From Eutreptiella sp. 'Long Island Sound 2002' (lineage: Eukaryota > Euglenozoa > Euglenophyceae > Eutreptiales > Eutreptiaceae), in the NCBI GenBank assembly GCA_964036045.1, contig OZ038387.1:19716348-19780347 (forward strand): a DNA stretch of 64,000 nucleotides. Direction: 5' to 3'. How positions within the stretch are numbered: position 1 is the stretch's first letter; the number at the start of each line of letters is the position of its first letter. A program made the translations under genes and the position numbers. The notes under the pieces are model-generated. The model made no database searches, was not told the DNA's origin, and worked only from the letters and a program-made list of their open reading frames with translations. Positions 19,852 to 61,518 of this stretch are shown piece by piece.

Positions 19852-23044
<3,193 letters not shown>

Positions 23045-40408: not shown

Positions 40409-40424
40409 TTTTTTTTTTTTTTTT
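40409..40424 (-). other. Poly(A) tail of the retrotransposon
   Basis: Sixteen T on the plus strand, immediately next to the target-site duplication and 143 bases past the stop codon of ORF F. Confidence 0.9.
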
Positions 40425-40567
40425 GATCAAAAAGGCCAGTTCACAAGTGCCAGGGGTCACAGTGGACCAAGTTCGAAGTAAGATACAGATTTCGGCGAAG
40501 CCAGGGTATGCATACGGGCTGCAGCTCGTGACTGTGCCCCCATGGTTTCCCATTGAGGTTGGTGTAG

Positions 40568-43552
40568 TCATGTCAGTGGTATTTCCCACTCATTCGGGTC
40601 CCAGTGCGTTTTGTGGCGTTTCGGTAGCGGTTGTAACGGGACTTCCCACAAGGTGGGGTCCCAGTGCTCCCGCGGCCGCTTCCGTATCAGGTATATCGTC
40701 TGTCGGGCTGGTCGGGTTGTTTGCCAGTATTGTGATGTCTTGTGTTTGCAGGCGTCTCGGTAGTACTGTGCCATGGCAGTCAGGTGTGTCTGCTGCTGCC
40801 ACATGTAGGTCGCTTGTTGATGGTGCAGGTCAAGTAGCTTGGCAGTGCCTGCAACCAGCCTCCAATAGCGGTCATTGACCATCAGTAGCAGTTTTGCGTC
40901 AGTGTACCACAACCTTGTGTCTTCCTTCGCTTGTTCGTACCATTGCCTGCGTATTTGGTACAGGTGTGCATGTGTGTCGTGCAGTCGTTGTGTTTGTCTC
41001 TGTTGGTCGACTAGTTTGACGACAAGCCTGTGGTAGTCGGTTTTTGCCGTCAGTGCGTTGGTGTAGCCCATGTGTAGCGTGCGCAGGTGTTGTCGTGCCA
41101 TCGCCTCCATGTGTGCTTTGTGGTATATGTCCCGTGCTTGCTGTGCGTGTTCGTTTGCCAGCCTGTCTGTGGTTGTCTTGTACTGTTCCCACCGCTGTGT
41201 GTCAGCGTTGAGGCGCTGGCGTTTCTTTATGTGGTCGTCTGCCCCTGTGTTAGTGGCTCGCGCGACGAACCATGCCACTGCTTCACTATCGCCCGCGTTG
41301 CGTGCATTTTGTAACCATTGGCCGGGGTCGATTGGGTCAGCCGTTGTGTCCTCGGCCTTACGTTTGCGTTTCGCGCCGCACCACGTGGGCACCCCGACTT
41401 GGTTCCGTAGGTTTTGGGGCGTTTCTCGTGGCGGAAGTGCCTGTGCCATGTATTTGGTGAGCCACAGGGGCGACGGTGGTTGTTGTGGTGTTGGGTCGGC
41501 GTACTTCCGTCTCAGTGTTTGGACGGACTGTATCATGCGAAACTGGAACAGGCCCACCTCCGTTCGCAGTTTGTGTCGTTCCGCAGTGGGTATGGCGTCG
41601 ACGAGGGACAGTGGTATGAGCAGCCTGACACATAGCCACAGTTCTTGGTTGTCGGCCGCTTGCAGCCATTGGTGCGTGTATGGGGTCCAATCAGTCCAGC
41701 TCTTGCGCCACAGATCCCAGAAGTCGCTCCAGGCAGGACAGTAGGCCAGTTTTGACTGTACTGATGCTCCGTGTTGGTGGCCACATTGGGAGCAGAGGCG
41801 GGGTGTCCGTTCCCAGGGGGCGCCCATTCCCCACCATCGCACTTGCCCCCACATCCGGGGTGTCCACGTGTTTCGTCTGTAATGCTTCATGGGGAGCCAG
41901 CTCACCCAGTGTACGCCTGGTGTTTGTTTTTGTCTACGCACTTGCATGATCCATGCCTTGGCAGGCGTGGGCATGATCTGTCCTGTGATGACAATATCAT
42001 GGGGTTGTGGTTGTTGGGAATCCATGGGCAGGTTGTCGCCCATATTGGCGAGGACGTCAGAGTGGTTGTTCCCCTGTATGTCCTGGTAGTCTTTATACGT
42101 GGTGGCTTGTTCTAGTTTGCGGTGCCCTGGTGTCCATCGGATCGTCAGTCGTTTCGTGGTGGAGTTGAGGTACCCTATGTCGCGGTAGTCCTGGTCCTTG
42201 ACCACTCCTTTGCGTTTTATAGGTGTGGCCTTCACCACACTCTGGTTGTCTAGTATAATGTCGTCTCCCGGCTTGGCCAGCTCTGAGGCTAAGGCGCAAG
42301 CGATCGTTTCGGCCCGATAAACCTGTTGAGGCCCGTGCACCCGGAAGGCCGCACGGTATGTTCCGTTGTAGATGCCCCCTCCCGCTCGTCCGTGTCGTTT
42401 CGACCCGTCTGTGTACCACCGGGTGGTGGTGGGTTCTCCTGTGTAGTGTATGGTGATTCCGTGTAGTTTTTGCTGGTGGGGGAGTGCCTGACAAACCTCA
42501 TGGGTTTCCTCAGGGGTTGGCTCCTCTGTGGGGTTCATCCAGCTGTAGTCTATGCGGTTGGTAGCTGGCCGTGTCTTCCCTGCATGCGTCTCCTGGTCCT
42601 CTTCTGAGCTCTCCGAGTCGTAGAGTCCCTCGGACAAGGGTCGGTGTTGTCGGGGTTGGGATATACGCTGTCCCACCGTGCCCCCTAGGGCTCGAATGGC
42701 GTCTATGTATTTATATTGGGTTGCGGTGAGTTGTTGTGTAGGGCCGGTGCGCTGCAGTTCTTGTTGGCCAATTGTGACCCACCGGGTGATGTAGAACCAC
42801 CACAGCTGGCGTAGGCCAAGTCCCCCGTGACTGAGGTTGGTAGTCAGCCGGTGTTTGTTCATTTGTTGTTCTACCCCGGGTGTATCCCTGATGAACTGCA
42901 GCAGCATGTCGTCCCAGTACGCCATTCGCGTCCTATTTCCGAGGAACAGTCCCCTGTACGTCCATCGGGGGATAAGGACGGCGTTGATGATGGCCACCTT
43001 TTCGTAGGCGTTGAGCGGCAGGGTCCTGTACGCCGCTACGTCGTGGTGTAGCTGTGTTGTGACCATGTCCCATGCTGTGTCTTCTTGTGTGGGGTGGGCT
43101 AGCACATGCCCCAGGTATGTCATTATAGGTGGCCGCACGGGGATGAGCTGATGCCGCCACGTGATGGGCGTTAGGTCGTAGTCCTTGGCCCAGTGGCACA
43201 CTTCAGTTTTGTCCTTGTTGAAGCGTAATCCCATTGTGTGGGCCACGTCGTGGAGGGTATCCAGGGTGTGCAGCAATGCTTCCCTCGTGGGCGCACGCAC
43301 AGCTATGTCGTCAACGAACACGTACAGTCGGGCTCCAGGGCATCGTTCCATGGTTTCACGTAACAGTATGTCGTAGTATAGGAGAAATAGCGTTGGGGAG
43401 AGGGGGCACCCCTCCTTCATACCCCTGGTGGGCCGTATGGGTAGGTCTTTTCCGTGTAGGGTTAGCACGGCTGGTGTATGCTGGTATATTTCCCCCAACA
43501 TCCGTATGATGTTCTCTGGTGCCCCTGCCTCCTTGACGATCCCAGTCAGCAT
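40568..43552 (-). CDS. ORF F: C-terminal half of reverse transcriptase, RNase H, Cys/His knuckle
   Basis: 994 codons from ATG to TGA. Residues 1-90 continue the RT palm begun in ORF E: motif B region RGMKEGCPLSPTLFLLYYD (43-61) and catalytic FVDD (79-82), then thumb. RNase H follows at about 377-505 with YTDGS (D382), RAET (E415), ILDNQSV (D435), WTPGHRK (H477) and NNHSD (D499), so the D-E-D-D set is complete. Further on, a CSQCGHQH...C cluster resembles the Cys/His knuckle found after RNase H or EN in some LINEs. The last 250 residues are basic and helical. The ATG overlaps the stop of E (atgctga). Since the RT fold is split exactly here, F on its own cannot give an active polymerase: a -1 shift, or a repaired base, is required. 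Confidence 0.85.
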   Translation of the reverse strand: MLTGIVKEAGAPENIIRMLGEIYQHTPAVLTLHGKDLPIRPTRGMKEGCPLSPTLFLLYYDILLRETMERCPGARLYVFVDDIAVRAPTREALLHTLDTLHDVAHTMGLRFNKDKTEVCHWAKDYDLTPITWRHQLIPVRPPIMTYLGHVLAHPTQEDTAWDMVTTQLHHDVAAYRTLPLNAYEKVAIINAVLIPRWTYRGLFLGNRTRMAYWDDMLLQFIRDTPGVEQQMNKHRLTTNLSHGGLGLRQLWWFYITRWVTIGQQELQRTGPTQQLTATQYKYIDAIRALGGTVGQRISQPRQHRPLSEGLYDSESSEEDQETHAGKTRPATNRIDYSWMNPTEEPTPEETHEVCQALPHQQKLHGITIHYTGEPTTTRWYTDGSKRHGRAGGGIYNGTYRAAFRVHGPQQVYRAETIACALASELAKPGDDIILDNQSVVKATPIKRKGVVKDQDYRDIGYLNSTTKRLTIRWTPGHRKLEQATTYKDYQDIQGNNHSDVLANMGDNLPMDSQQPQPHDIVITGQIMPTPAKAWIMQVRRQKQTPGVHWVSWLPMKHYRRNTWTPRMWGQVRWWGMGAPWERTPRLCSQCGHQHGASVQSKLAYCPAWSDFWDLWRKSWTDWTPYTHQWLQAADNQELWLCVRLLIPLSLVDAIPTAERHKLRTEVGLFQFRMIQSVQTLRRKYADPTPQQPPSPLWLTKYMAQALPPRETPQNLRNQVGVPTWCGAKRKRKAEDTTADPIDPGQWLQNARNAGDSEAVAWFVARATNTGADDHIKKRQRLNADTQRWEQYKTTTDRLANEHAQQARDIYHKAHMEAMARQHLRTLHMGYTNALTAKTDYHRLVVKLVDQQRQTQRLHDTHAHLYQIRRQWYEQAKEDTRLWYTDAKLLLMVNDRYWRLVAGTAKLLDLHHQQATYMWQQQTHLTAMAQYYRDACKHKTSQYWQTTRPARQTIYLIRKRPREHWDPTLWEVPLQPLPKRHKTHWDPNEWEIPLT

Positions 43553-45705
43553 GGGTCGGGGACTGATGGAAAAGCTTTGGCCACATCAAGTAGGGCCACG
43601 TACCCGTCCTCAACGTGCAGATCGTTTAATAGTTTTGTGGCCAACGTTGTGGTGTTTCGGCCCTGTGTGGCGCCGTGTTGTATGTCCAATAGTCCCGGGG
43701 TCATGGCTCCCGATATACGCGTCAGGAGGAGGCGTGTGAGTATACTATATATGGCCGTGGATACGTAGATTGGCCGGTAGTTTCGTGGGTCCTGGGGATC
43801 CTTCTTTTTATAGATGAGCACTACCCTGGACCGCAGCCAAGCCACTGGGATGTGTTGTCCGTTCCAGACTGCAACGATTGCCTGGTATAGTTGCCGCTGT
43901 ACGTGGTCCGGTAGGTGCCGGAGCAGGTGTGGGGGGACACCGTCAGGTCCGGCAGATTTGTTCTTTGGTGCCCGTAGGCACTGCAGGTATTCCTCGTATG
44001 TGGGGGTCGTTGTGTTCCACGTGCGGCGCCGTACATGTTTCCGTATGAGTTGCCGGCACGCGTCTTCGTCGTATGTTGGGTCGCCCGCAAAGTGGTTGAG
44101 TACGTACTGTGTTCCTCCTATTGGGGGCTGCGGTGTGTCCTGGGCTATGAGTCCAGTGCGCCATCTCTTGACCATTTTATAAAAATAGCCCGATTTGTGC
44201 ACTGCCGCCCGGCGCAGTTTGCCGATTTGTCTCCGTATGTGTTGCTCTTGTATTTCCCCGTACTCCCGTAACCGTGTTTTGGGGTCCGTGGTTTCCGACC
44301 AGCCTGCGGTGGTCGCTGTCTTTGCGCGCGTGGGTCGTCGTGGTCGCGCCGCGTGCGCTATAGCAGACAGTATCCGTCGTGCCGTGTGTAGTGGTGGGTC
44401 GTTGTTTGTTATGGGTAGTGTGGATATGGTGTTAGTAAACCGTTGAAATTGTTTTGTATACCACTTCGCGACTGTGGGCTGTGGTTTTCTGTGTGGTGGG
44501 TCGGGGACCCCTATCCTCCATCGGACCCCAAGCAGGACCATAGCATGATCCGATATGGGCATTTGTATGGTGTCATAGTAGGTCCAGGGTATGTTCGGTA
44601 TTTGTTGCCGTATCAAGATGGCGTCTAGGCGACGTGGGCGTCCATGCCTAGGGATGCGGGTATAGTATTGCCGGGGGTCCGGGGGCTGGCTGCTAGCGTG
44701 CAAGGGGTCCAGGAACACTCCGCTGGCCAGGTCTTCCTGCCACGGGCGTGTCGGGTTGGGAGACCAAATGTCATCGTTGTAGTCCCCCATAATGATGTCG
44801 TATGGTCTCAGGGACTGCAGAAATAGGTCTACCTCCTGTTTGTCCTGTTGGCTGAATTTGGAGTACACACACGCAATGGTGCGGCGGGGGCTGTTTGGGA
44901 GCTGTATCCTGATGGCCCCTGCCAATCCGTTGGGGGAGTATAACGTTTCGAGTATGTGAGGGACCACAGCGTTGCGGACAACGAAAGCTATCCGCGGTTC
45001 GTTCCCAGGCGCAGCGTAGCACTTGTAGTCGTTGTTGAGTGCTGTTGTGGCCGCCTCTGGTTTAGGGAAACCTGGGTGATACTCCTGGATGCCGCATAGG
45101 TCGATACGGCACTGGCTGATTAAGTGGAGGGTGTTGGCCCACCGTTGTAGGCTGACGGATCCCTGTGCTCCTTGTATGTTCCAGGAGGCCAGTTTCATGT
45201 CGTGGTCCTTCGCGGTGGTTGCGTCGTCTAGACTGTCATATTGTCGATTGGTGTTGACCACCAGGTGTTGTGCATACTCCTCAATGTCCAGCAACGGTAT
45301 GGGGGGTCCCCGCACATCCCGGCATCCCCGCCGGAGCTGATATATCCTACGGTGCCCGGGGTTGGGGTGCACATCTCCGCATTGGAGGACCCAGTTGGTG
45401 TTATACCGCGTGTTATATGGGCTGGTTACCGTGGTGATCGTGACAGGTGCATGGTAGCGGCATGGCGCTGCCGTGATTGGGGCGGTCGGGGTGTGGAAGA
45501 AACAGACGATATAGAGGAGGAGTAGGCCTGGCCGCCATATACGGTAACTATGGGGGTTGGGGCCCCGTGCGTACCTGTGCCGGTGCCGTAACGGCGGGGT
45601 ATATCGTCTGCGGACTCTCCGGTTCACGGGGAGCAGATACAACGGCCCCTCAGTATGCGTGGGGGCCAGGAGTAGGAGGAGGGCCATAATGGCGATGCAG
45701 GGCAT
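43546..45705 (-). CDS. ORF E: hydrophobic N-terminus, degenerate 2A, APE endonuclease, N-terminal RT
   Basis: 719 codons. Residues 1-20 and 58-72 are hydrophobic, signal- or anchor-like. At 109-118 is CGDVHPNPGH, a decayed 2A. APE-type endonuclease at about 170-400: KLASWNIQG (N176), CGIQEYH (E208), MGDYND (D308, N310), and ISDHAMV (S385-D386-H387), the expected catalytic series for nicking target DNA. RT motifs follow: RVVLIYKKKDPQDPRNYRPI, QHGATQGRNT and motif A LLDVAKAF, then the frame ends. The hydrophobic character starts before the ATG (RCLFLM in the same frame), which suggests entry by a -1 shift from D' near a ggaaaaag tract. Endonuclease and RT identities are secure. Confidence 0.85.
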   Translation of the reverse strand: MPCIAIMALLLLLAPTHTEGPLYLLPVNRRVRRRYTPPLRHRHRYARGPNPHSYRIWRPGLLLLYIVCFFHTPTAPITAAPCRYHAPVTITTVTSPYNTRYNTNWVLQCGDVHPNPGHRRIYQLRRGCRDVRGPPIPLLDIEEYAQHLVVNTNRQYDSLDDATTAKDHDMKLASWNIQGAQGSVSLQRWANTLHLISQCRIDLCGIQEYHPGFPKPEAATTALNNDYKCYAAPGNEPRIAFVVRNAVVPHILETLYSPNGLAGAIRIQLPNSPRRTIACVYSKFSQQDKQEVDLFLQSLRPYDIIMGDYNDDIWSPNPTRPWQEDLASGVFLDPLHASSQPPDPRQYYTRIPRHGRPRRLDAILIRQQIPNIPWTYYDTIQMPISDHAMVLLGVRWRIGVPDPPHRKPQPTVAKWYTKQFQRFTNTISTLPITNNDPPLHTARRILSAIAHAARPRRPTRAKTATTAGWSETTDPKTRLREYGEIQEQHIRRQIGKLRRAAVHKSGYFYKMVKRWRTGLIAQDTPQPPIGGTQYVLNHFAGDPTYDEDACRQLIRKHVRRRTWNTTTPTYEEYLQCLRAPKNKSAGPDGVPPHLLRHLPDHVQRQLYQAIVAVWNGQHIPVAWLRSRVVLIYKKKDPQDPRNYRPIYVSTAIYSILTRLLLTRISGAMTPGLLDIQHGATQGRNTTTLATKLLNDLHVEDGYVALLDVAKAFPSVPDPC
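45352..45381 (-). other. Degenerate 2A-like motif (fifth)
   Basis: CGDVHPNPGH. The NPG core is kept, but the essential final Pro is His and Glu is His, so StopGo activity is unlikely. It lies between a hydrophobic segment and the endonuclease, where 2A motifs sit in several other LINEs. Confidence 0.6.
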
Positions 45706-46082
45706 GAGGAACAGGCACCTCGCTTTTTCCCTTTGCCCTGCGGGTTTTTTGGCGGCCCCTTTCCTTTCCCCTTGTGTCTGTTGTCCACAGTGAAGGCAGC
45801 CGTACTGTCTGCTTGTTGTGTGGGTTGCGGCGATGCAGGCGCTGCCTTCTTCTTTTTTGGTGGTGGCGTTGTTTTTGTGGGCGTTTTCTGTGGTGTCTTG
45901 TTGTGGGCCTTGGTTTTCTGTGCTGGGTGTGGCTGCCGTGCGTGTGGTGTGGTTAATTTTGCCGGGTTGTCTGGTTGCTGGGCGGGGGTTTCATCCGTGT
46001 CCATGGTGGCCATATGTGGGTGGGTGTCTGATGGGGTGTCGTCGTTGTTGGCATGGCCGAGTTCGTTCAGGATGGCCTCGTC
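45624..46082 (-). CDS. D': Lys/Pro-rich basic tail after an in-frame TAG
   Basis: In the same frame as ORF D, starting right after its TAG. Coding character is unbroken: before the stop PEPINVAD, after it DEAILNELGHANNDD. Then come Thr/Pro-rich sequence, a PPPKKKKAAP nuclear-localisation-type cluster and a GKGKGPPKNPQGKGKK nucleic-acid-binding-type stretch. The last 25 codons overlap ORF E. The first ATG is at about 45,98x, so independent initiation is possible but would drop the start. Confidence 0.65.
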   Translation of the reverse strand, partial: DEAILNELGHANNDDTPSDTHPHMATMDTDETPAQQPDNPAKLTTPHARQPHPAQKTKAHNKTPQKTPTKTTPPPKKKKAAPASPQPTQQADSTAAFTVDNRHKGKGKGPPKNPQGKGKKRGACSSCPASPLWPSSYSWPPRILRGRCICSP

Positions 46083-47888
46083 CTAGTCAGCCACGTTGAT
46101 GGGTTCCGGTTCTGCGAAAAGCTGCTTTTCCCTGTTGATTTCCTTGATGACACGTTCAGTCATCATGTCTGAGCCCAGTTGCTTCCCTGCCTTCATTCGT
46201 CTCCTGAAGGCCGCGTCGTCGCCCGTTTCCTGCGGCATTTTGTGCGCGAGCATCTGGTCGATGCGCTCTGCCGCCTGTGCGTCCGTGTTGTCATCTCCCA
46301 GCGTGATGTGGACGTATTCACCGGGTGCCACTCCGATGTATTGTCCGGCACTGAGGGCCACTGCCGTGGCGTGCTGGTATTGGAGGGAGGCGTAGGTGCA
46401 GCCCGCGTCGCTCCACATGTTGGGTTCCGGCTTCCAGCTGGTCCAGCATCCAAAGAATGATGCCACGACTTTCGCCGTGTCGTCTCCTGCGCCCTGTGTC
46501 CACCCTACGAACACCGTCGTGGTGTCGTGCCTAGTCGGTTTTGGCGGCCGCTTGATGTCCCTAGAGCGGCTCGTGGACTGTGTCCAGTTGTTGCGGTTGA
46601 GGATGACGTTGGTCATCACGTGGACCAGTTCGTAGCTTTTCATGCCCTTTAGCAGGTGGGCAATCAAGCGTCGGTCTGCATCTGGGTGGAATTGTACCAG
46701 TAGACGGTATGAGTCCACTGGTCGGAACCCCTTGAGGAAGGATGCAATGCTCCTTCCTAGCTCGAGCTGTTCCCTGTCGAGGTCGTCCAGTATCTCCTGT
46801 ACGGACGTTATTCTGTCTTCTTTGTGTTCCGTGTATTGTTGTCTCAGTATATACAGGCTCTCATAGTCCGTTTCGGTGAGCGAGTACGGTCCAGGGTTGC
46901 CGGCGTTTTCCTCCTCTTGTTTTATGGTCTGCAGTGCTTGTGTCAAGCGAGGCAGCAATTGCATGGGCAGGTGTAGTCTCCAGGCGTGCGACCCACTTTG
47001 CCCTGCGGTGTGTTCGGATGCGCACTTCCACCGAAAAGTGTTGTGGGGGTCTTTGCTTGCTATGGTGGATGCGACGTCAGACTGGTGGCCGTTGATCCGT
47101 TTCATAAATGCGTCTCGCGTCCTAATGCCCGTTTCTGGTGGGCACTCCACTACGATTGTAGTCTTAGCCGGTTCTGGTTGTAGTGTGTCTGTGCGGTCTT
47201 CCAGTCCCACTTGTATGGGTGTGCCCTTCGTGAGTGCGTATGTTTTGTGCGTGGGCTCGTGTCCCATCTTTATGGTGTTGTCCAGGTGGAGGGCCATGAT
47301 GGGTTTGGGTTGTAGGTGGTCGACCATAGTTTCGTGTTCCGGGGACCACTTGCGCACGGGGAATTTGTCGAATTGGTATACGCCCCTTACATAGCGGGCC
47401 AGTTTGCGCAGGGGGGCGCGGTGGAGGCAGTCCATGCTGTAGGTTTGTAGTGCTGTAATGTCTTGGCGGTCCGCCTCGTAAGCCAGGATCAGTTCCTTGG
47501 CCCCCAGGTCGCCGAGTGCCCGTAGGACTTGGTCAACCCGTTCGTCCTCACTTCCGCCCCATTCCGTTTGTATGGCGGCGCGCTGCATGCGTCGTTCATG
47601 GTTGCGGCGGGTCCCGGTTGCCTGTGGCAGTAGTAAGTATGTCTTGTTCCGGATGTCTGGGTTCCCTTGATGGTCGGCTTCTGTGTGTACTGTGTATTGG
47701 TGTGCTTCGGCCATCTCGGATACCGTGTGTATACCGTCAGAGTCTGCCTCATGCCTCACCGTCATGACGTCGCGCAGTTTGTGTTGCGCAAACAGAGGGA
47801 GTTGGTAGGTGTTCCTGTCATACCATACCCCTTCCTGTGTTTGCCTCCTGATGTGCTGTGTGGTCACTGCACGGTTTGGGTGCTTTGT
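46083..47888 (-). CDS. ORF D: RRM-containing ORF1-type protein
   Basis: In the same frame as ORF C, separated by one TGA (47889-47891). There is no ATG until about 34 residues after the GTG at 47867. Mostly charged helical sequence, then an RRM-like domain at 46293-46523: RNP2-like TTVFVGW, RNP1-like GCTYASLQY, with the expected spacing. ORF1 proteins of LINEs commonly carry RRMs and coat the RNA in the RNP, which is the likely role. The C-terminal part is basic (KQLGSDMMTERVIKEINREK). It ends at TAG 46083-46085, after which the same frame continues as D'. Confidence 0.7.
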   Translation of the reverse strand, partial: TKHPNRAVTTQHIRRQTQEGVWYDRNTYQLPLFAQHKLRDVMTVRHEADSDGIHTVSEMAEAHQYTVHTEADHQGNPDIRNKTYLLLPQATGTRRNHERRMQRAAIQTEWGGSEDERVDQVLRALGDLGAKELILAYEADRQDITALQTYSMDCLHRAPLRKLARYVRGVYQFDKFPVRKWSPEHETMVDHLQPKPIMALHLDNTIKMGHEPTHKTYALTKGTPIQVGLEDRTDTLQPEPAKTTIVVECPPETGIRTRDAFMKRINGHQSDVASTIASKDPHNTFRWKCASEHTAGQSGSHAWRLHLPMQLLPRLTQALQTIKQEEENAGNPGPYSLTETDYESLYILRQQYTEHKEDRITSVQEILDDLDREQLELGRSIASFLKGFRPVDSYRLLVQFHPDADRRLIAHLLKGMKSYELVHVMTNVILNRNNWTQSTSRSRDIKRPPKPTRHDTTTVFVGWTQGAGDDTAKVVASFFGCWTSWKPEPNMWSDAGCTYASLQYQHATAVALSAGQYIGVAPGEYVHITLGDDNTDAQAAERIDQMLAHKMPQETGDDAAFRRRMKAGKQLGSDMMTERVIKEINREKQLFAEPEPINVAD

Positions 47889-50309
47889 TCAGTAGGTTTT
47901 TAGTCTGGTTTGTGCGTCGTACACAACTGATGCTTTCAATGTGTCTTGCTCTGCTGTAGTCATTGGTTGTTGTGACGCGCCCGTGTTGAGCTTCACGAGT
48001 TCTTCTATGAGCTGGTATTCCGTAGGTGTGTGTATGGGTAGTTTGCCCAGTGGGTTGTTGCAGTCTTCGTGGAATGTGTATGCCTGTGTATCCTCTTGGG
48101 GTGGAGGGGGGACGTAACTTAGCCCTTCGGTGTGTTGGTCAGGTGGTGTGCTAGGTTCCCCATTCTGGGGGGGCTCCCGCTCAGTGGTATCCTCTGGTGG
48201 GGGGTTTGAGTTTGTCTCCAGGATGTCCGGGTTTTCCTTTTTGTCCCCCTGGTCTTGCACACCAGTGTGCAGTCCGGACGTGTGCCTTTCGTAGTTTTCT
48301 GTCAGGGTGCGCACCAGGCCATGGGGCGGGGCGTTGCTATCCGGGCCTGGGTTGGGTTCCACATCACCATCCTGCGTGGCATCCGGCACCCATGGGGTGT
48401 GTTGTGGGTAGACCACGTCTGGGGTAATGGATGTGATCCCGTCATGGCGCACATCCGATGGGTGGTCGGGTGGCGCCCAGCTGGTGGTGTCGTGCTCCAG
48501 GGGCAGGTCGTGTTGCAGGGGTTGGACCAGAAAGAGCCAGTATCGGATGGATAAGGCCATGTGGAAGCCCTCCCTCGTGCCCGTGAGGACATGCAATCTG
48601 TGTCTTGCGATGTGGTAGTATGGGAGGTCAGTCCTGAGGTGTACCTCCCACAGTTGGCCTGTCGTGCTAGGTAGCCTCCTCCACACGTTGTATGCCACGT
48701 GCACTGGCGGGTTGGGAGTTGCGCAGTGATCCGTGTATGTGAGGAGTCTGTTGTTGTAGATTTGTATGTGGAAATACGCGTATGTTGGGTCATCCGGGGG
48801 TGGGGGGGGTATCTTTGGTTGCAGGGTGCCGCGGCACAGTGGGCATCTTAGCAGTCGTGGGTCGTTGGCGCAGTCCTGGCACAGCCTGTGCCTGGGGTCG
48901 CAGCTCAGGTGTGTATCCGCGGGGCTGTCCAAGCATACTGGGCAGTCCTCCGGCGGTGTGGTCTGGGCTGTGCGTTCCACTGCGGGTGTGGTTAGTCCGG
49001 GGTTGGGCTCTGTGTCTCCGTCTTGAGTCGGGTCGTGGACCCAGCTCGTAGGTCTCGGGTAGGGGCGATTGCGTAGGCGTTGTGTTCGGCGGATCTTCCT
49101 GCGTGGTGAGTCACCTATGACCTGGTCAGTGGTGTCTTCATATGGCCGTTTCACGCGTAGGTTTCCTTGGTTCCCGAGGGGGTGTTGCTCGTCCCAGTGG
49201 GTCGTGCTCTGGTGCCTTTTGGGCAGTGGTTGGTGGGTAGGTTCCCGGTCCGCCTTTCGTTTGTGGTGGTTATATACCAGTGTTGACGATTGATGTTCCT
49301 GGTTCGCCATGGGCACGTGGTCTGCGCGCCTCCGTTTTTGTCCGGGGGAGGTGTTGTCCGCGGTGCGTTTGCGTAGCATCCTAGGTGTTTGGTACATATG
49401 TGGTGTGTCTTGGTTGTATCGCGTGCGCTTCGCTGAGGGTGTTGATGGGCTGGGGCCGGGGTTTGGTTCGACATCCCCGTCGCTTGTGACGTCGCGTAAC
49501 CATCCGTCCGGGGTGTCCTCCACGGTCGGTCGGGGGCCCGTCTTGTGTGGTACTGGCGTGCGGTAGGTTTGCGAGGCGGTGTCCGGTATGGCCTCTTGCC
49601 AGGATTCCTGTCGTGGGTATAAGGGGTCTGGGGACATCACGTTGTAGAGTCGCCGTGGCACCAAGTCTGGGGTATCCGGTTGGTGTATGGCAAAATACTT
49701 GCATGTGGTGCAGCGGAAGTACACAAAGTCGGCCATGTTGCATTGGGGGCAAACTACATCGATGGCTGTGGTCATGTTTAATCCTACCGGTGAGTGGTGT
49801 TTTTGTGTTTTTACAGTCAACTCGGTAGTTTCCAAGGGGGCGGGTCGTGGTGTGCCTGGGCCATGTACCTCTTTCACCAGGGGTGCCTCTGGTGATGGCA
49901 CCTCCAATGTGCCATGTGTGGTAGACGGTTCTGCACATGGAGCGTGTATGTTGTGTCCTAAGGGAGGGGTGGATGCGCGCCGCTTTTTTTGCAGTGCCTC
50001 CGTGAGTGCCTGTGTCGCGTATTTGTATAGTTTAGCGGGGTAGTGGGGGTTGGAGGCCGTTTCGATCTCGCTGGCTAGCCAGGTGACCATCTCTCTGTGC
50101 TGGGGGGGGATGTCGTTCCCTGTGGTCTGCGCATCTTCAGGTCCCGGGTTCTTTTCGATATCACCGTCGACCGTGCGGTCCCGCAACAACCCAATGAGGG
50201 CGGGGGGGTGTCGTCGATTGTTGGGGGGTGCCTGCCTAGATGGTGGGTCGCGAGGCATTTCTCCCATGAGGGGGGGGGGGGTGCCCCGAGGGGTAGGGGG
50301 GTTCCTCAC
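47889..50309 (-). CDS. ORF C: 2A-peptide array with zinc ribbon and RING finger
   Basis: 806 codons, opening at a GTG; the first ATG is residue 15, just past a C12 run shared with the end of ORF B. Order: 2A-like 1 (residues 48-57), zinc-ribbon CPQC...CTTC (187-203), 2A-like 2 (277-286), a basic Arg-rich region (300-415), 2A-like 3 (430-439, degenerate), a C3HC4 RING (C456, C459, C470, H474, C477, C480, C489, C492), and a globular-looking segment, then 2A-like 4 (48342-48371) and an acidic Pro-rich end. RING domains usually recruit E2 enzymes as ubiquitin ligases. Active 2As would release each module as a separate protein during translation. The frame ends at a lone TGA before ORF D. Confidence 0.75.
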   Translation of the reverse strand: MRNPPTPRGTPPPLMGEMPRDPPSRQAPPNNRRHPPALIGLLRDRTVDGDIEKNPGPEDAQTTGNDIPPQHREMVTWLASEIETASNPHYPAKLYKYATQALTEALQKKRRASTPPLGHNIHAPCAEPSTTHGTLEVPSPEAPLVKEVHGPGTPRPAPLETTELTVKTQKHHSPVGLNMTTAIDVVCPQCNMADFVYFRCTTCKYFAIHQPDTPDLVPRRLYNVMSPDPLYPRQESWQEAIPDTASQTYRTPVPHKTGPRPTVEDTPDGWLRDVTSDGDVEPNPGPSPSTPSAKRTRYNQDTPHMYQTPRMLRKRTADNTSPGQKRRRADHVPMANQEHQSSTLVYNHHKRKADREPTHQPLPKRHQSTTHWDEQHPLGNQGNLRVKRPYEDTTDQVIGDSPRRKIRRTQRLRNRPYPRPTSWVHDPTQDGDTEPNPGLTTPAVERTAQTTPPEDCPVCLDSPADTHLSCDPRHRLCQDCANDPRLLRCPLCRGTLQPKIPPPPPDDPTYAYFHIQIYNNRLLTYTDHCATPNPPVHVAYNVWRRLPSTTGQLWEVHLRTDLPYYHIARHRLHVLTGTREGFHMALSIRYWLFLVQPLQHDLPLEHDTTSWAPPDHPSDVRHDGITSITPDVVYPQHTPWVPDATQDGDVEPNPGPDSNAPPHGLVRTLTENYERHTSGLHTGVQDQGDKKENPDILETNSNPPPEDTTEREPPQNGEPSTPPDQHTEGLSYVPPPPQEDTQAYTFHEDCNNPLGKLPIHTPTEYQLIEELVKLNTGASQQPMTTAEQDTLKASVVYDAQTRLKTY
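48342..48371 (-). other. 2A-like motif 4 (intact consensus)
   Basis: DGDVEPNPGP, matching D-V/I-E-x-N-P-G-P. Preceded by WVPDATQ. Would separate the RING-plus-globular module from the acidic tail and ORF D. Confidence 0.8.
48834..48944 (-). other. C3HC4 RING finger domain
   Basis: C-x2-C-x10-C-x3-H-x2-C-x2-C-x8-C-x2-C, a textbook RING-HC spacing, beginning CPVCLD and ending CPLC. It lies directly after the third 2A-like motif. Confidence 0.85.
48993..49022 (-). other. 2A-like motif 3 (degenerate)
   Basis: DGDTEPNPGL: Val/Ile to Thr and the final Pro to Leu. The missing final Pro should abolish StopGo. Preceded by WVHDPTQ, the same upstream pattern as motif 4. Confidence 0.75.
49452..49481 (-). 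other. 2A-like motif 2 (intact consensus)
   Basis: DGDVEPNPGP preceded by WLRDVTS. It separates the zinc-ribbon module from the basic region. Confidence 0.8.
50139..50168 (-). other. 2A-like motif 1 (intact consensus)
   Basis: DGDIEKNPGP preceded by LLRDRTV. It would release everything upstream (A/B products, if joined) from ORF C. Confidence 0.8.
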
Positions 50310-52512
50310 GATACTGTGGCAATAGCACGAAGGGATCTGATCCAGGAAATGCGTGTATTCTGGTCATAGTCGCAGGTGCCTGTCCAGTCCGTTGCCCGTC
50401 GGTCGGGGCCTGCGCGGCGCCCCCGCGTACTGATGGCCGGTTTGGGGCCATATATGACATACCTGTCTGGTTATCGTGTACTGCCTGTCGCTGGTTAGCA
50501 GACTGGGCGTCACCGGGGGCGTCGAGCGCGCCCACACCGGTGTGTAGAGCGGGAGAGTAGTCGGTGGCCAAGGGCCCAGCCGGGTAGGTGCCAGTAGCGC
50601 CTGCCATCCCCACGCATGGTCGGCAGGCGGGCACGTTCACACGGCCCGTCGCCTTCGCAGTCCGTTGCCTGTCTGTCTGGCCCCGCGCTGTTGATGGCCG
50701 GGTTGGGGCCATATATGACATTTTTGTGTGTCCGTCCTGTGCTGTCCGTTGCTGGTCAGCATGCCGGGCATCACCGGTGGCAAAGAAAGCGCCCACGCCG
50801 GTGTGCCCGGATAAATAAACTGCGGCCTGGTAGGCAGTGGCCAAGGTCCCGGCCGAGTGGGTGCCAGCGGCACCAGTCATTAGCGTGCATGCCTGAGGTG
50901 CAATTTCCTTACGGCCGGCTTGCCAACGTGCGGTCACCGTGCGGTCGGCGCGGTCCGTTCCAGGTTGTCCGTTCCCGCTGTTCACTGTGGAGAATGGCGC
51001 AAGGCAGGTGTTGGGAAGGTAGCCACAGGCTCCCGCTGTAACCCTCATGCATATGTATGCACATACCAGCACATCAGGTGACGCGGTATCTCGTTGATCA
51101 GGGGGTGGAATGGTGGGGATGTTGGGGATGACCGTCCCCAGTTCCCCCTTGTGGGTCCTGGGTCGGCGCCTCCTTCCTCGCGGCTGACGGGGGGGTGTCT
51201 GTTGTTCTTGCCGTGCGGCCACCACGTCCCAGCCTCCAGTGAAGGGGAAAACCCCAGCCTGTCCCCAGCCGGATGGTTCCGGTCCCTGTTCTGGTGCCTG
51301 CTCTGCGTGTGCATCGTGCCACGTTGCCCTTTCCCCGTGGATCTGAGGGGGTCCGGGCTGGTGCACGGGGTGCTCGTCTGGTGCGTCCGTTGGTCGTCGT
51401 CGGGGGGCATGCGGGTCTGCCAGTGGTCGTGTGCGATCCCTTGAGAGCCACATGTCCAGATACCCCGTCGCCGGTTCGGCATCTGTGCGTCGCTGTATCG
51501 GTGGCTCGGTTCGCAGGATCTCGAGCGCAGCTGCATTCTGCTCGCTGAACCTGGCCCTGGTCCCTGAAGTGTCCTCTGGCAGTATGTGCTGTCCATGGCG
51601 GTCGACGACGGCCCGATACTGCACCTGTGGTTCGTGCTGTGTCTGTGGTGCATACAGTGGTTCACTGTGGTACACCGGCTGCGCCACCGTGTGTTCCATG
51701 CGTGTGGCTGCCCGGTATTGCGCCTGAGGTTCGTGCTGTGTCTGTGGTACACGCAGTGGTTCACTGTGGTACACCGGCTGCGCCGCCGTGTGTTCCATGC
51801 GTGTGGCCGCCTGCTGTGGGAGGGGCTGTCGGTTTACGTCCCCGTGTCCGTGTTGGAGGGCAGGGACCGCACATGGCACCTCCGGGCTGTGAGGATTGCG
51901 GTAGAAATGCAGCGGTTCGGCCACAGGAGTTGGGGGGCAGAGGGGTGAGTGTTGAGGCTGCTGTCCGGGTTCGTGCAGGGAGACCTGTCGTTCCCCTTGG
52001 CGCGTGTCGATGCTCACGCAGTAGCGTCGCCGTGCCTGTGGTGCCGCCTCGTCTTGTGACGGTTCTGCCAGGGTGCGGGCTTGGTCACTGTGTCTGTCAG
52101 TGCTGTGCTGTGGCGCTGGGGCCTCAGGCGTCACGGTTTGCTGTGGTTGGATCGACCGGCAGATTCCTGCTACAGAGTCCGCAAGGGACGTCATGGCCCG
52201 CAGGGCCTGGGTGAGTTCGCCCTTGGAGCTGCGCTTCCGGGACTTTTTCCGTCGGCTGTGGCTGTCACTGTCGCTGTCGCTGGTGCTGTCACTGTCTGTG
52301 TCTCTCCATGACCGTCTGCCTCCTCCCTTCAGACCCACCAGTCGCAACGTCAGGTGGATGGGTTGGTTGTGGTCGTGGTCGGGGTCGGCCAGTGGTCTGT
52401 GAGCAGCTGTCCTTGGTAGAACAGCCGCTGGTGTTGCGGTGGGGGTAGGTGTGGCGTGAGGTGATGGAGGGCATGTTTGATGCCCTTGACTGACCCGGTT
52501 GCCGGAAGGCAA
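50236..52512 (-). CDS. ORF B: end of ubiquitin-like fold, SR/SD region and tandem repeats
   Basis: 758 codons with no ATG at its 5' end (the frame opens at TTG), so entry from ORF A by a -1 shift is implied. Residues 40-64 (LADPDHDHNQPIHLTLRLVG, then LKGG) are the last strand of a ubiquitin-like domain begun in ORF A. Next come a Ser/Asp/Arg block (about 68-95), a 36-residue unit repeated twice (each with QPVYHSEPL and TQHEPQ), and near the end a long diverged duplication (HTGVGAFFATGDA / HTGVGALDAPGDA; MSYMAPTRPS / MSYMAPNRPS). It ends at TAG 50236. ORF C overlaps by 74 bases, and the C12 run there would fuse B to C if it were one base shorter. Confidence 0.65.
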   Translation of the reverse strand: MPSGNRVSQGHQTCPPSPHATPTPTATPAAVLPRTAAHRPLADPDHDHNQPIHLTLRLVGLKGGGRRSWRDTDSDSTSDSDSDSHSRRKKSRKRSSKGELTQALRAMTSLADSVAGICRSIQPQQTVTPEAPAPQHSTDRHSDQARTLAEPSQDEAAPQARRRYCVSIDTRQGERQVSLHEPGQQPQHSPLCPPTPVAEPLHFYRNPHSPEVPCAVPALQHGHGDVNRQPLPQQAATRMEHTAAQPVYHSEPLRVPQTQHEPQAQYRAATRMEHTVAQPVYHSEPLYAPQTQHEPQVQYRAVVDRHGQHILPEDTSGTRARFSEQNAAALEILRTEPPIQRRTDAEPATGYLDMWLSRDRTRPLADPHAPRRRPTDAPDEHPVHQPGPPQIHGERATWHDAHAEQAPEQGPEPSGWGQAGVFPFTGGWDVVAARQEQQTPPRQPRGRRRRPRTHKGELGTVIPNIPTIPPPDQRDTASPDVLVCAYICMRVTAGACGYLPNTCLAPFSTVNSGNGQPGTDRADRTVTARWQAGRKEIAPQACTLMTGAAGTHSAGTLATAYQAAVYLSGHTGVGAFFATGDARHADQQRTAQDGHTKMSYMAPTRPSTARGQTDRQRTAKATGRVNVPACRPCVGMAGATGTYPAGPLATDYSPALHTGVGALDAPGDAQSANQRQAVHDNQTGMSYMAPNRPSVRGGAAQAPTDGQRTGQAPATMTRIHAFPGSDPFVLLPQYREEPPYPSGHPPPPHGRNASRPTI

Positions 52513-52541
52513 ACCGGGGGTCCGGCGCCGCTCACGATCAC
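52321..52541 (-). other. Ubiquitin-like domain spanning the A/B frame junction
   Basis: In ORF A (residues 538-586): SVKGIKHALHHLTPHLPPPQ, then HQRLFYQGQLLTD, matching ubiquitin's VKxxI...GIPPxQQRLIFxGKxLxD pattern. In ORF B (residues 40-64): LADPDHDHNQPIHLTLRLVG, matching [21 protein letters not shown]. The switch lies at 52395: A's Asp codon then B's Pro codon share one base. A Gly-Gly occurs four residues after the expected position (LKGG). Confidence 0.7.
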
Positions 52542-54152
52542 CGACCTACAGCGCCACGCAGGGTGGGGTTGGGAGGGGGGGGTGGATCGTTGTGAGAACG
52601 CCGTGTTGCGGCAATTCCTAGTTCGCGAGCAGTGCGGTATATGCGATGGCAACGGCGTCACATGCAACACAGGGTGTATGTCCGGTCGTCGGTGCAGTTC
52701 CTGCGCAGAAAACTGCGCAGTGGTTACGGTGTGGTTTGGGTAGTGACACGGACGGGGAGCAGGGCTCCGCACCGTCGTCATGGTTGGCATTGTTGGCGGG
52801 GAGCGTCGCTCCGCTCCGCCGTTGGCCATTCCGTAGTGTGTCATGATGTTTTGGTACGTTGTCTGGTCGGTGGTGTTGGCTGGCGGGGAGCAGGGCTCCA
52901 CTCCGCCGTCCCCGTTGTGTAGCAGGAGCAGGATGATGTGTGTCATCAATCCTATGTAGCACAGCGGTCGTGGCCTCCATGAGGTCGTTTTGTTGAGTCG
53001 TACAGTGGCATGCCAAGGGCGGGGAGCGAGGCTCCGCACCGCCGTTGTGTTGTTCTCTGTCCTGACGGTTGTGTCCGGCGGTTGGTTGTCGGTGTCTGGG
53101 CGGGGAGCTGGGCTCCGCACCGCCGGTTGGATGTTTGGGTGGGAGGCATACCTTGGACTCATCACTTGAGGCTCGAAATGGTACGGGTCGTGGGTGCCCA
53201 CGTCCCGGCTCACGTCTGCCGCCTTGTTGGTGGCGTTACTGGCATCCACGTTCGTCCTTGTCGTATTGGCGGAGGTCGTCTCAGTAGGCCTTTGCGTGCC
53301 CTCGGTGTAGAACTGGTTGGTGTAACGGCGGGGGGCAAGTTTGGCTCGCGGCGGTGCGTCTTCGGGCAGTCTGTTATAACCCATCCAGCCATGCTCGGGT
53401 CTCGGGCCATCCGGACGGCGGTCGTCTGTAGCATCATCAGAGGGACCCAAAGGGTTGATACGGTCAGCCAACTCGTCTGTCGCATGGCCAGAGGCAGCGC
53501 TGGGGCCCTCACTGGTGACCAAGGCCTGGACATAGTAGACCAACATGTAGATCATCGTTAAGCGGGCGTGCGTGATCTCATTCGCCTTCAGCTCGGCAAC
53601 GGCCACGGGATCGTCAGAGGGACCCAGGGGGTTGAAACGGCCAGCCATCTTGTCATTCGCATGGTCAGAGGCAGCGCTGGAACCCTCACTGGTGACCCGG
53701 GTCTGCACGTAGTGGTCCAACATAGCGATCATAGCTAGGTGGGTGTTCCTGATCGTGTTCCCCTTTAGCGTAGCGGCGGCTTCAGGGTCGTCAGAGAGGC
53801 CCATATTGTTGAGGATGACTGTGCTCACACCAGCGGTGTCCCAATCGTAGTCTCCTGCGGTGGCGGTCTTGACGGGTCTGTCGGGTCTTCTGTCGGTGTC
53901 TTTCAGCGTGAGGAGGGAATCCTTCAGGTCGTCCTTGCCCAGGGCGGGGTCGTACTTCGCCCCGGCGGAGGCGTACTCGGCGGTGTCCGTCACAATGTCC
54001 GTTTCGGCCGTGACTGCTCCCTTGGTGTCGGCGTTGCTGTTGACCGTGTCGATGGTTGCGGGTGTTGCCAAGAACGCCTGCCGTAACAAGGCTCGGAGCC
54101 AGGCAAAGCGTCTTGCATCACGGTGCCCCATGCTGGGCTTTCCGTGGTCCAT
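52350..54152 (-). CDS. ORF A: LHC-like helix repeats, start of ubiquitin-like domain
   Basis: 600 codons from ATG, 37 bases from the element's 5' end. Residues 1-35 are Arg/Ala-rich and amphipathic, transit-peptide-like (inference). Residues 100-170 and 173-240 are two copies of a chlorophyll a/b-binding third-helix module (see separate entry). Then Thr/Pro/Asn-rich disorder, a hydrophobic patch (CYIGLMTHIILLLL), five DNA palindromes encoding SPAPRP or GGxExxSPP, and from 538 the ubiquitin-like start. It ends TGA at 52350 after leaving the ubiquitin fold unfinished. Nothing here is usual for a LINE ORF1. An origin by capture of a host LHC mRNA is inferred. Confidence 0.75.
   Translation of the reverse strand: MDHGKPSMGHRDARRFAWLRALLRQAFLATPATIDTVNSNADTKGAVTAETDIVTDTAEYASAGAKYDPALGKDDLKDSLLTLKDTDRRPDRPVKTATAGDYDWDTAGVSTVILNNMGLSDDPEAAATLKGNTIRNTHLAMIAMLDHYVQTRVTSEGSSAASDHANDKMAGRFNPLGPSDDPVAVAELKANEITHARLTMIYMLVYYVQALVTSEGPSAASGHATDELADRINPLGPSDDATDDRRPDGPRPEHGWMGYNRLPEDAPPRAKLAPRRYTNQFYTEGTQRPTETTSANTTRTNVDASNATNKAADVSRDVGTHDPYHFEPQVMSPRYASHPNIQPAVRSPAPRPDTDNQPPDTTVRTENNTTAVRSLAPRPWHATVRLNKTTSWRPRPLCYIGLMTHIILLLLHNGDGGVEPCSPPANTTDQTTYQNIMTHYGMANGGAERRSPPTMPTMTTVRSPAPRPCHYPNHTVTTAQFSAQELHRRPDIHPVLHVTPLPSHIPHCSRTRNCRNTAFSQRSTPPSQPHPAWRCRSVIVSGAGPPVCLPATGSVKGIKHALHHLTPHLPPPQHQRLFYQGQLLTDHWPTPTTTTTNPST
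52751..53124. repeat. Five 26-bp GC-rich palindromes
   Basis: At 52751-52776, 52795-52820, 52882-52907, 53018-53043 and 53099-53124. Each has the form grcggggagc-nnn-gctccgcnccgyc, able to fold as a stem with a small bulge. They fall in two different reading frames of ORF A (encoding VRSxAPRP or GGxExxSPP), so the repetition is at the DNA level. They resemble the mobile hairpin elements seen in some organelle genomes. Confidence 0.85.
53433..53855 (-). other. Two LHC (chlorophyll a/b-binding) helix-C-like repeats
   Basis: ORF A residues 100-240. GDYDWDTAG matches the LHC luminal/helix-A approach GDYGWDTAG. Then DDPEAAATLKGNTIRNTHLA with YVQTRVTSEG (copy 1). Next FNPLGPSDDPVAVAELKANE, then ITHARLTM with YVQALVTSEG (copy 2), and a third INPLGPSDD start. 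The LHCII pattern is FDPLGLADDP...ELKVKEIKNGRLAM...FVQAIVTGKGP. Of the known pigment-contacting positions, copy 2 keeps Glu192, Arg197 and Gln209 (Asn replaced by His195). Copy 1 keeps Asn136 and Gln150 but has lost Glu and Arg. Confidence 0.75.
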
Positions 54153-54189
54153 TTGTTGGTACCGAAAAAAATAGACACTCAGAAAGTGA

Positions 54190-54209
54190 GCCCAACCTCC
54201 CGCCGCACA
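54190..54209. repeat. Target-site duplication, 5' side of the element
   Basis: gcccaacctcccgccgcaca, identical to 40389-40408. Confidence 0.95.
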
Positions 54210-54511: not shown

Positions 54512-54540
54512 CTAACCCTACCCTAACCCTAACCCTAACC
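54512..54540. repeat. Interstitial telomere-type repeat
   Basis: taaccctaccctaaccctaa, then two more ccctaa units, i.e. TTAGGG-type read on the minus strand. It lies 300 bases outside the retrotransposon. It could be a relic of repair or a short chance array. Confidence 0.8.
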
Positions 54541-56537: not shown

Positions 56538-56729
56538 TCGACAAGGGCACTATTGTATCGTCCTTGTTGTCTACTTTACGAATCTACTTGGGTTTGGGTG
56601 TCTTTGGGTCAATTTGGTAAAGATATCCACATATCTTTACAAATACAATATGCAAGGAGGGACACATGGTACCAGCCGATGGGTACCATTGCATGCAATG
56701 CGCGTCCCACGCGACATATGACGATGTTT
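56538..56729 (+). repeat. 192-bp direct repeat, copy 1
   Basis: Identical to 57015-57206 except for about three bases. It starts tcgacaagggcactattgta and ends gacatatgacgatgttt. Spacer of 285 bases. The ends are not TG...CA, so I do not call LTRs. Confidence 0.95.
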
Positions 56730-57014: not shown

Positions 57015-57206
57015 TCGACAAGGGCACTATTGTATCGTCCTTGTTGTCTACTTTACGAATCTACTTGGATTTGGGTGTCTTTGGGTCAATTTGGTAAAGA
57101 TATCCACATATCTTTACAAATACAATATGCAAGGAGGGACACATGGTACCAGCCGATGGGTACCATTGCGTGCAATGCGCGTCCCAAGCGACATATGACG
57201 ATGTTT
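57015..57206 (+). repeat. 192-bp direct repeat, copy 2
   Basis: See copy 1. The near-identity indicates a recent duplication or two insertions of the same short element. Confidence 0.95.
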
Positions 57207-60852: not shown

Positions 60853-61518
60853 CTACGCAGCGCGGACCTCCGCCTCGTAATCGCGCAGCTGGCACTGGAA
60901 CCCACTGTTCACTGAGACCGAGGGGCGCTTGTTGCGCACCATGGCCAACGCTTTCTCAAAGCTCACACGCCGCGACTGAATGATGTACGCCATCACCGTC
61001 GCGACAGAACGTGAGATCCCCGCGACTGAGTGCACCAACACGTTGGTGTCTGCCCGCTTGCGGATGAACCGGAAGGCAGGCTCCCAGTGCGACCGGATGT
61101 CCTCAGACGGGTCGTCATCCACATCGAGCTGCAAGTACGCGATACCACAGAATTGTTTGATGTGCCCGCTGCGCTTCGCCACCGTGAGCACTCTGTCAAT
61201 GCGGTGCTCCCGGAGCCAAGCTTCGTTCAAGGTAGTGCCTTCCGGTCCCAAGTAGATGTTGTCCACGATGTGCTCCGCGGGCTGGAAATTGCGTTTTCGC
61301 GGCACTCGAGTCACGGCTTCCGAGCCACACACTTCCGAGCCACACATTGCGAAGGCTCGCTTGTAACATTCGGGACACACTGGAAAAGCCCGGTACTGCG
61401 ACTGCCCGTCGAAAAAGGCGTTGCATAGCGTGCATGCCGTCTTGGAATCCGCAAGTTCAAAGAAGGTTGCCCCGAAGCCTGCATGAATAGAACGTGTAAT
61501 CATGATGCTCATGAGCAT
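60853..61518 (-). CDS. Dual-specificity-phosphatase-like protein with Ser in place of the catalytic Cys; N-terminal zinc motif
   Basis: 221 codons, single exon, ATG at 61518 with further in-frame ATGs at residues 3 and 6. Residues 28-59 carry a CTLC...CPEC paired-Cys motif, probably a zinc knuckle. Residues 77-216 match the DUSP fold: start HIVDNIYLGPEGT, substrate-loop region RIDRVLTVAK, the general-acid region LDVDDDPSEDI, P-loop VHSVAGISRSVATVMAYIIQ, and the C-terminal SVSVNSGFQCQL (NxGFxxQL is usual). The P-loop should be HCxxGxSRS; here cac tca gives HS, so Cys is Ser. Such proteins cannot form the phosphocysteine but may bind phospho-substrates (STYX-like pseudophosphatase). Residues Gly, Ser and Arg of the loop are intact and the frame is unbroken, so it looks maintained. 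No introns, unlike other genes here, so a retrocopy is possible. Confidence 0.8.
   Translation of the reverse strand: MLMSIMITRSIHAGFGATFFELADSKTACTLCNAFFDGQSQYRAFPVCPECYKRAFAMCGSEVCGSEAVTRVPRKRNFQPAEHIVDNIYLGPEGTTLNEAWLREHRIDRVLTVAKRSGHIKQFCGIAYLQLDVDDDPSEDIRSHWEPAFRFIRKRADTNVLVHSVAGISRSVATVMAYIIQSRRVSFEKALAMVRNKRPSVSVNSGFQCQLRDYEAEVRAA

Follow-up and report, generated by a model that had tools for sequence, protein, structure and literature searches.

How does a piece of a photosynthesis gene come to lie inside a mobile element, and what has become of it there? The question is raised by a 64,000-nucleotide stretch of the genome of the euglenophyte Eutreptiella sp. 'Long Island Sound 2002' (GenBank assembly GCA_964036045.1, contig OZ038387.1, positions 19,716,348 to 19,780,347), the whole of which we refer to as the window. 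An earlier note, made from the sequence alone, described a complete long interspersed nuclear element (LINE) in the window whose first open reading frame (ORF), ORF A, carries two copies of a module resembling the third membrane helix (helix C) of light-harvesting complex (LHC) proteins, and proposed that the element had captured a nuclear LHC gene fragment and duplicated it internally. Capture and duplication inside the element are both supported by the element boundaries, a significant profile match, and the recurrence of the segment in other copies. The history as a whole was probably one capture of an LHC fragment at the 5' end of the LINE, after which the fragment was duplicated and reused as an N-terminal cassette of variable make-up. 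The capture is well supported; its route and the present function of the fragment are what we infer.

The LHC-derived segment is encoded on the minus strand and comprises the following features, given in window positions:

52350 to 54152, minus strand: ORF A, 600 residues, with the LHC modules and the start of a ubiquitin-like domain (open reading frame and Pfam)
53829 to 53855, minus strand: GDYDWDTAG, ORF A residues 100-108 (translation and LHC matches)
53640 to 53813, minus strand: LHC helix-C module 1, residues 114-171 (Pfam and module profile)
53463 to 53636, minus strand: LHC helix-C module 2, residues 173-230 (Pfam, PDB matches, and module profile)

GDYDWDTAG is an LHC motif, which in LHCs takes the form GDYGWDTAG and stands before helix A. 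In ORF A, this lead-in is joined directly to helix C and a short following stretch, helices A and B are missing, and the helix-C unit behind the lead-in is duplicated. The duplication is also visible in the DNA as a 177-bp tandem repeat at 53433-53803 with 76% matches, found by TRF independently of any protein search. ORF A matches the chlorophyll a/b-binding family PF00504 in two stretches (E 3.4e-9, 37.9 bits; cut-off 22.3 bits), and the profile search proposed in the earlier note, using residues 95-245 alone, is likewise significant at 43.7 bits. With phmmer, the same residues match 391 distinct PDB sequences at E ≤1, the best at E 1.7e-23 (summed over the repeats) and CP26 chain 8bd3_S at 56.9 bits; among the best 60 of the 391, 59 are named as LHC or chlorophyll-binding proteins and one (8bd3_Y) as "Multifunctional fusion protein". 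A profile built from seven modules yields 284 PDB matches at E ≤1e-3, and the best 60 of these again consist of 59 entries named as LHC or chlorophyll-binding and 8bd3_Y. PF00504, the LHC chains in the PDB, and the 177-bp tandem thus confirm the motif and both modules as originally read.

The helix C of LHCI-2, from the LHC polyproteins in the Euglena gracilis photosystem I-LHCI structure (PDB 9VFJ; PMC12577709), is close to module 2, with 24 of 44 positions identical, compared with 21 of 44 for module 1; three other LHC helices share 22 of 44 positions with module 2. The E. gracilis LHCs have three membrane helices per unit, whereas the LINE modules have helix C only, and the mid-helix glycine of such LHCs is replaced by Asp or His in five of the six LINE modules compared. 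The best PF00504 matches in ORF A begin at profile positions 112-131 and end at 160-161 of 162. Because the matches are confined to the end of the profile and the units are of the helix-C type, we read the segment as LHC-derived but not itself an LHC.

Protein searches for relatives of ORF A relied on shared words (one run scored the 7997 candidates with most words in common) and returned 33 distinct proteins, P0002 to P0034. P0002 is the window's own and the same ORF as P0001, giving 34 ORFs scored in total; the 32 others lie on other contigs, and no relative was confirmed in a viral contig. Six of the 32 carry strong modules by the module profile, whose rows come partly from P0003, P0005, P0006, and P0007: these four together with P0004 and P0034. 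Pfam independently places P0003, P0005, P0006, and P0034 above the PF00504 cut-off and P0004 and P0007 below it. There are two modules in P0003, P0005, and P0034, one and part of another in P0006, and three in P0007. Partial modules (13-26 bits) occur in P0017, P0025, and P0030, and marginal ones (best 8-9 bits) in P0011, P0012, and P0024. A small tree of at most 58 sites places eight modules together and separates them from four LHC helices (0.997), and we think it probable that the LHC fragment was captured only once.

The extent of the element and the state of its ends are as follows:

40409 to 54189, minus strand: full-length LINE of 13,781 bp, with the spliced leader at its 5' end and poly(A) at its 3' end (boundaries and an AT/GC skew block at ~40-54 kb)
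54190 to 54209: target-site duplication, 5'-side copy, 20 bp, perfect, identical to 40389-40408
40389 to 40408: target-site duplication, 3'-side copy, 20 bp, perfect, identical to 54190-54209
40409 to 40424, minus strand: poly(A) tail of 16 A
54163 to 54187, minus strand: Euglena spliced-leader sequence in the DNA, with 7 T rather than 8, 2 bases from the target-site duplication

On its minus strand the LINE starts with TC-ACTTTCTGAGTGTCTATTTTTTTCG and ends in 16 A, and its start is the E. gracilis spliced leader, as published (PMC6242988), minus one T. There is a single occurrence of this leader in the window, and 100 shuffles gave none. From the leader and the LHC matches, the host is very probably a euglenid, E. 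gracilis or a close relative. Only 5 of 1980 random pairs of similar window stretches share 12 bp or more, the longest being 15 bp. An apurinic/apyrimidinic (AP)-type endonuclease, a reverse transcriptase (RT), the target-site duplication, and the 3' poly(A) are all present, as in a LINE, and the element has no long terminal repeats (LTRs), self-comparison having revealed no terminal repeats. The DNA spans the spliced leader to the poly(A) between target-site duplications, so the template was a trans-spliced, polyadenylated mRNA, and this copy is its full-length retrotransposition product. From the 5' end of the element it is 334 bases to GDYDWDTAG and 376 bases to module 1. The description of the LINE as complete therefore holds for its length, which the duplications, poly(A), and leader attest, and fails for its integrity, given the frame changes and stops described below.

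Could the LHC match be a chance or compositional resemblance, or could it be host sequence that merely lies at the insertion? A chance match would be in keeping with two shorter cuts of residues 95-245, which reach 17.9 and 17.8 bits and fall under the PF00504 cut-off, but the module pair lies above it, and each of seven single modules, drawn from five proteins, matches PF00504 and no other family. Shuffled sequences reach 6.5 bits at most, compared with more than 100 bits (nine of 3400 had any match to the module profile). The single modules and the shuffle control rule out chance or composition, to which we give next to no credence. That the segment is host sequence, an LHC pseudogene or a retrocopy lying next to or within the insertion, has some precedent in that host genes give rise to retrocopies in dinoflagellates, which are spliced-leader organisms (PMC12014239). 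The segment, however, lies within the boundaries set by the target-site duplications, leader, and poly(A), is continuous in a single ORF with sequence specific to the element, and is found again in copies on other contigs; when the element was compared against the entire window, no further copy of the segment turned up beyond the element's ends. The boundaries and the recurrence rule out a neighboring pseudogene, and host sequence of either kind is highly improbable. The earlier note had named such a pseudogene as a test of its reading: some copies, at least 4 of 32, do lack the segment, yet nothing points to a pseudogene of the host. An LHC origin of a segment located inside the LINE is, in our judgment, almost certain.

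The N-terminal region of the element varies among relatives in a blockwise manner. P0007 and the window ORF are identical at 254 of 265 positions in the C-terminal half and at 65 of 127 in the N-terminal half, and P0010, P0011, and P0025 show the same contrast with the window; subfamilies exchange the N-terminal half as a block. In 4 of the 34 ORFs the translation includes the spliced leader, which is read in two different frames: the match is exact over eight residues in P0030 and over five to six in P0008 and P0025, and includes two substitutions in P0019, while the pattern occurs in none of 34,000 shuffled proteins. What follows the translated leader is YQQMDHGKPS, GAI(S/F)S(S/A)M, or CHFFVHGRP, and with these three distinct sequences in four ORFs, at least three different N-termini stand behind the leader.

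These N-termini bear on how the LHC fragment was captured. The LINE may have inserted in or behind an LHC gene, giving a read-through transcript that started upstream. This RNA would have been trans-spliced at an upstream LHC exon acceptor, making the host exon the new 5' end; alternatively, the RT may have switched templates to an LHC mRNA. The chimeric mRNA would then have been retrotransposed, capturing the LHC fragment once. A further step would have deleted helices A and B, and the helix-C unit would have been duplicated inside the element, the fragment serving since then as a variable N-terminal cassette. Capture by trans-splicing is, in our estimation, a reasonable proposal at slightly less than an even chance. 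As the main rival, the modules could have come from an LHC mRNA through a template switch of the RT onto the LINE cDNA while target-primed reverse transcription was under way, trans-splicing then adding no more than the leader; we find this rather doubtful. The fragment is a single open frame near the 5' end, where switching would put it, and subfamilies exchange N-terminal halves, as expected between related RNAs; however, a leader before at least three different N-termini is directly explained by trans-splicing at varying acceptors, and the missing helices A and B demand an extra step under either route. In E. gracilis, the LHCs are made as polyproteins from long mRNAs (PMC12965295). More broadly, LINEs of spliced-leader organisms might grow at their 5' ends through trans-splicing, whereby RNA begun upstream of an insertion receives the leader at a host acceptor and is copied back, with host exons joining the front of the element's frame, the LHC fragment as a trace of such an event, the swapped N-termini, several of them behind the same leader, as other products, and the ubiquitin-like and RING parts processing the polyprotein or acting on host ubiquitin pathways, an extension that we consider speculative and on balance unlikely.

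The modules may now have a function other than the one they had in the antenna. Aligned by eye on the profile rows, the three residues named in the earlier note, Glu, Arg, and Gln, are all present in module 2 (NEITHARL...YYVQ), and module 1 keeps Asn and Gln and has lost Glu and Arg; by eye, neither module has a His at the later aligned His position. Hydropathy over 17 residues is 0.54-1.14 in five of six modules compared and 1.44 in module 2 of the window, whereas four LHC helices range from 1.34 to 1.84. A pigment-binding antenna role was considered and is thought unlikely given the lower hydropathy of most modules. An antenna function in general is also unlikely: two of the three LHC helices, A and B, are lacking, Glu and Arg no longer occur in module 1, and the helix-C Gly of LHCs has given way to Asp or His in five of six modules; pigment binding by the modules would be very surprising. 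The modules perhaps form a helical N-terminal cassette of the first protein, and this cassette is more likely an interaction or membrane-contact segment, touching membrane or protein, than an antenna. Import into euglenid plastids requires a signal-peptide-like segment. The first 60 residues of ORF A contain none and have a best 15-residue hydropathy of 0.93, so the suggestion that the N-terminus hints at organelle targeting, including plastid targeting, finds no support.

Whether the cassette is maintained by selection can be asked of the two window modules, which differ at 44 of 177 bases. Their synonymous (dS) and nonsynonymous (dN) divergences are 0.58 and 0.23, giving a dN/dS of 0.40 (bootstrap 0.19-0.84; Fisher p 0.008), and 1.7% of 2000 neutral simulations are as low. 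This is modest evidence that the modules diverged under constraint, and selection on the cassette is slightly favored in our view over mere carriage. The modules might instead be a functionless passenger, kept open because ORF A translates through to the ubiquitin-like domain, a possibility that we take seriously though we rate it as somewhat improbable. Consistent with a passenger are the relatives without a module match and the eroded modules of P0017, P0025, P0030, P0011, P0012, and P0024; the dN/dS of 0.40 speaks against it, as does the LDYYVQ core retained even in the remnants in P0011, P0012, and P0024.

Several observations weigh against the history proposed here, that is, one capture followed by duplication and reuse as a cassette. 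Twenty of the 32 relatives have no module by the module profile. Some of these, including P0013, P0018, and P0020, start downstream of the module region, but P0008, P0009, P0014, and P0019 extend 355-443 residues upstream of a shared landmark (413 in the window ORF), cover the region, and still lack modules, two of them behind a spliced leader. Since at least these four are long enough, the cassette is dispensable. The six weakest carriers have no PF00504 match even at E 10. In P0005 and P0007, one Pfam match spans profile positions 14-161 or 15-161, and Pfam aligns the first unit to helix A. LHC helices A and C resemble each other, and we read these first units as helix C because YVQALVT or a similar sequence is present. 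The estimate of constraint comes from one pair of 59-codon modules, and the structure predicted for the LHC region conveys no information (predicted local distance difference test score of 44) and was not used. Neither a chimeric LHC-LINE transcript nor a donor LHC gene was encountered: a protein search for the donor, which depends on shared exact words, scored 615 candidates and found five element ORFs, the window's own included, and no LHC, although LHCs had been expected. Lastly, the frames of the window copy are broken, with changes between ORFs A and B, B and C, and E and F (the last inside the RT) and stops both downstream of ORF D and in the interval between ORFs C and D. The A/B change is private to the window copy, since 15 of 32 relatives cross that point in one frame; the B/C and E/F changes and the stops may be damage or natural ORF borders, and the RT match at E/F is split.

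The L1Tc/ingi LINEs of trypanosomatids are not known to have LHC, ubiquitin-like, or RING parts. These non-LTR elements, also from Euglenozoa, resemble the LHC-carrying LINE in having an AP-type endonuclease, RT, RNase H, and 2A (PMC4748587). The same report describes an L1Tc promoter, Pr77, and luciferase reporter mRNAs made in Trypanosoma cruzi from Pr77 constructs without a spliced leader; as far as that reporter test goes, L1Tc, the known LINE of a sister group, differs from the LHC-carrying LINE, where the leader belongs to the DNA of the element itself. SymbioLINE-Dnmt of Symbiodinium is an algal LINE that has taken up a DNA methyltransferase of its host; the acquired gene lies in the ORF preceding that of the RT and is kept across copies (PMC5890265). 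Its captured enzyme domain is reported to be under purifying selection, while the fragment here is from a photosynthetic membrane protein and is duplicated, and the LHC-carrying LINE adds a ubiquitin-like domain in the same ORF, 2A-like motifs, a RING finger, and a 5' spliced leader. DinoSL-tagged retrogenes of dinoflagellates are likewise reverse-transcribed trans-spliced mRNAs that leave the leader in the genome (PMC12014239), but those are host gene copies, whereas here the leader tags the retrotransposon itself. Host-gene capture into a LINE ORF and leader-tagged retrogenes are thus already known from these reports. Passages of the E. gracilis assembly paper, which gives LINEs as 1.485%, contain no LHC-carrying LINE (PMC11252322). 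Among the matches listed in our literature search, which covered titles and abstract openings and left most subscription papers outside, there was no LHC fragment in a LINE, no ubiquitin-like domain in a LINE, no spliced leader in a euglenid LINE, and no combination of a duplicated LHC-derived cassette with a leader-tagged 5' end, all of which is weak evidence of novelty.

The element is a concrete case in which a fragment of a photosynthesis gene has been built into a protein of mobile DNA and has increased in number within it. Its 5' spliced leader suggests a testable route by which LINEs of trans-splicing organisms could gain N-terminal domains that they did not have before; elsewhere, this step in LINE evolution is difficult to observe. 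It also advises caution, as PF00504 matches in euglenid genomes may be transposon ORFs rather than antenna genes.

The remaining protein parts of the LINE are these:

52318 to 52556, minus strand: ubiquitin-like domain ending in LKGGG, its last part in a different frame from the first in the window copy
50236 to 52512, minus strand: ORF B, an open reading frame that in the window copy includes the end of the ubiquitin-like domain
47889 to 50309, minus strand: ORF C, an open reading frame with a RING finger and four 2A-like motifs, of which three read NPGP and one NPGL
48834 to 48944, minus strand: RING-type zinc finger CPVC...CPLC (zf-C3HC4_3, 23.7 bits, below the cut-off of 27)
46083 to 47867, minus strand: ORF D, without a confident family
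44545 to 45189, minus strand: endonuclease domain (Exo_endo_phos, E 1e-10)
43106 to 43809, minus strand: reverse transcriptase split over ORFs E and F (RVT_1 matched by each piece, that of ORF E below cut-off)
42044 to 42424, minus strand: RNase H-like region (18.3 bits, below the cut-off of 25.8)

The ubiquitin-like domain has both a beta-grasp fold and a sequence match and is well conserved among relatives. LKGGG is found in 13 of the 34 ORFs, most others ending before it, with LKEGG in P0018 and PKGGG in P0029, and host deubiquitinases might cleave behind it. The 2A/StopGo motif is D-x-E-x-N-P-G-P. Four 2A-like motifs lie at 48336-50207 on the minus strand with the RING finger among them, and a fifth, NPGH, lies upstream of the endonuclease at 45346-45420 on the same strand; the three NPGP motifs of ORF C fit the pattern, and NPGL (ORF C) and NPGH fit it only partly. 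These motifs are predicted to separate the polyprotein. GDGGVEPCSPP, which follows a leucine-rich run in 25 of the 34 ORFs, was not called 2A, EPCSPP being too constant. At 52795-53125 (minus strand), short GC-rich units of the form GGGGAGC...GCTCC are repeated by eye, with self-matches of 71-93%, and encode ORF A motifs of the VRSPAPRP/EPCSPP type. ORF B contains a 99-bp tandem repeat at 51611-51811 in two copies that are 91% alike, of which P0020 and P0032 have one copy fewer.

A search of the entire window against Rfam, with gathering thresholds, gave no match. An array of 33-bp repeats (CCAGACGTCGGCACACGCGG...) at 40093-40403 adjoins the insertion site of the LINE. Two near-identical stretches starting with GACAAGGGCACTATTGTATCG, their ends set by eye, lie at 56540-56729 and 57017-57206, and the latter comes after ATTTTTTTTC(G), a sequence identical to the 3' end of the spliced leader. 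An ORF with a dual-specificity phosphatase domain (PF00782, 5.2e-23) at 60853-61518 on the minus strand is perhaps a host gene. A short, telomere-like CTAACC repeat lies at 54512-54540. On the plus strand, a hexamer repeat at 21471-21651 codes for an Arg-Asp run in an ORF at 20907-21761.
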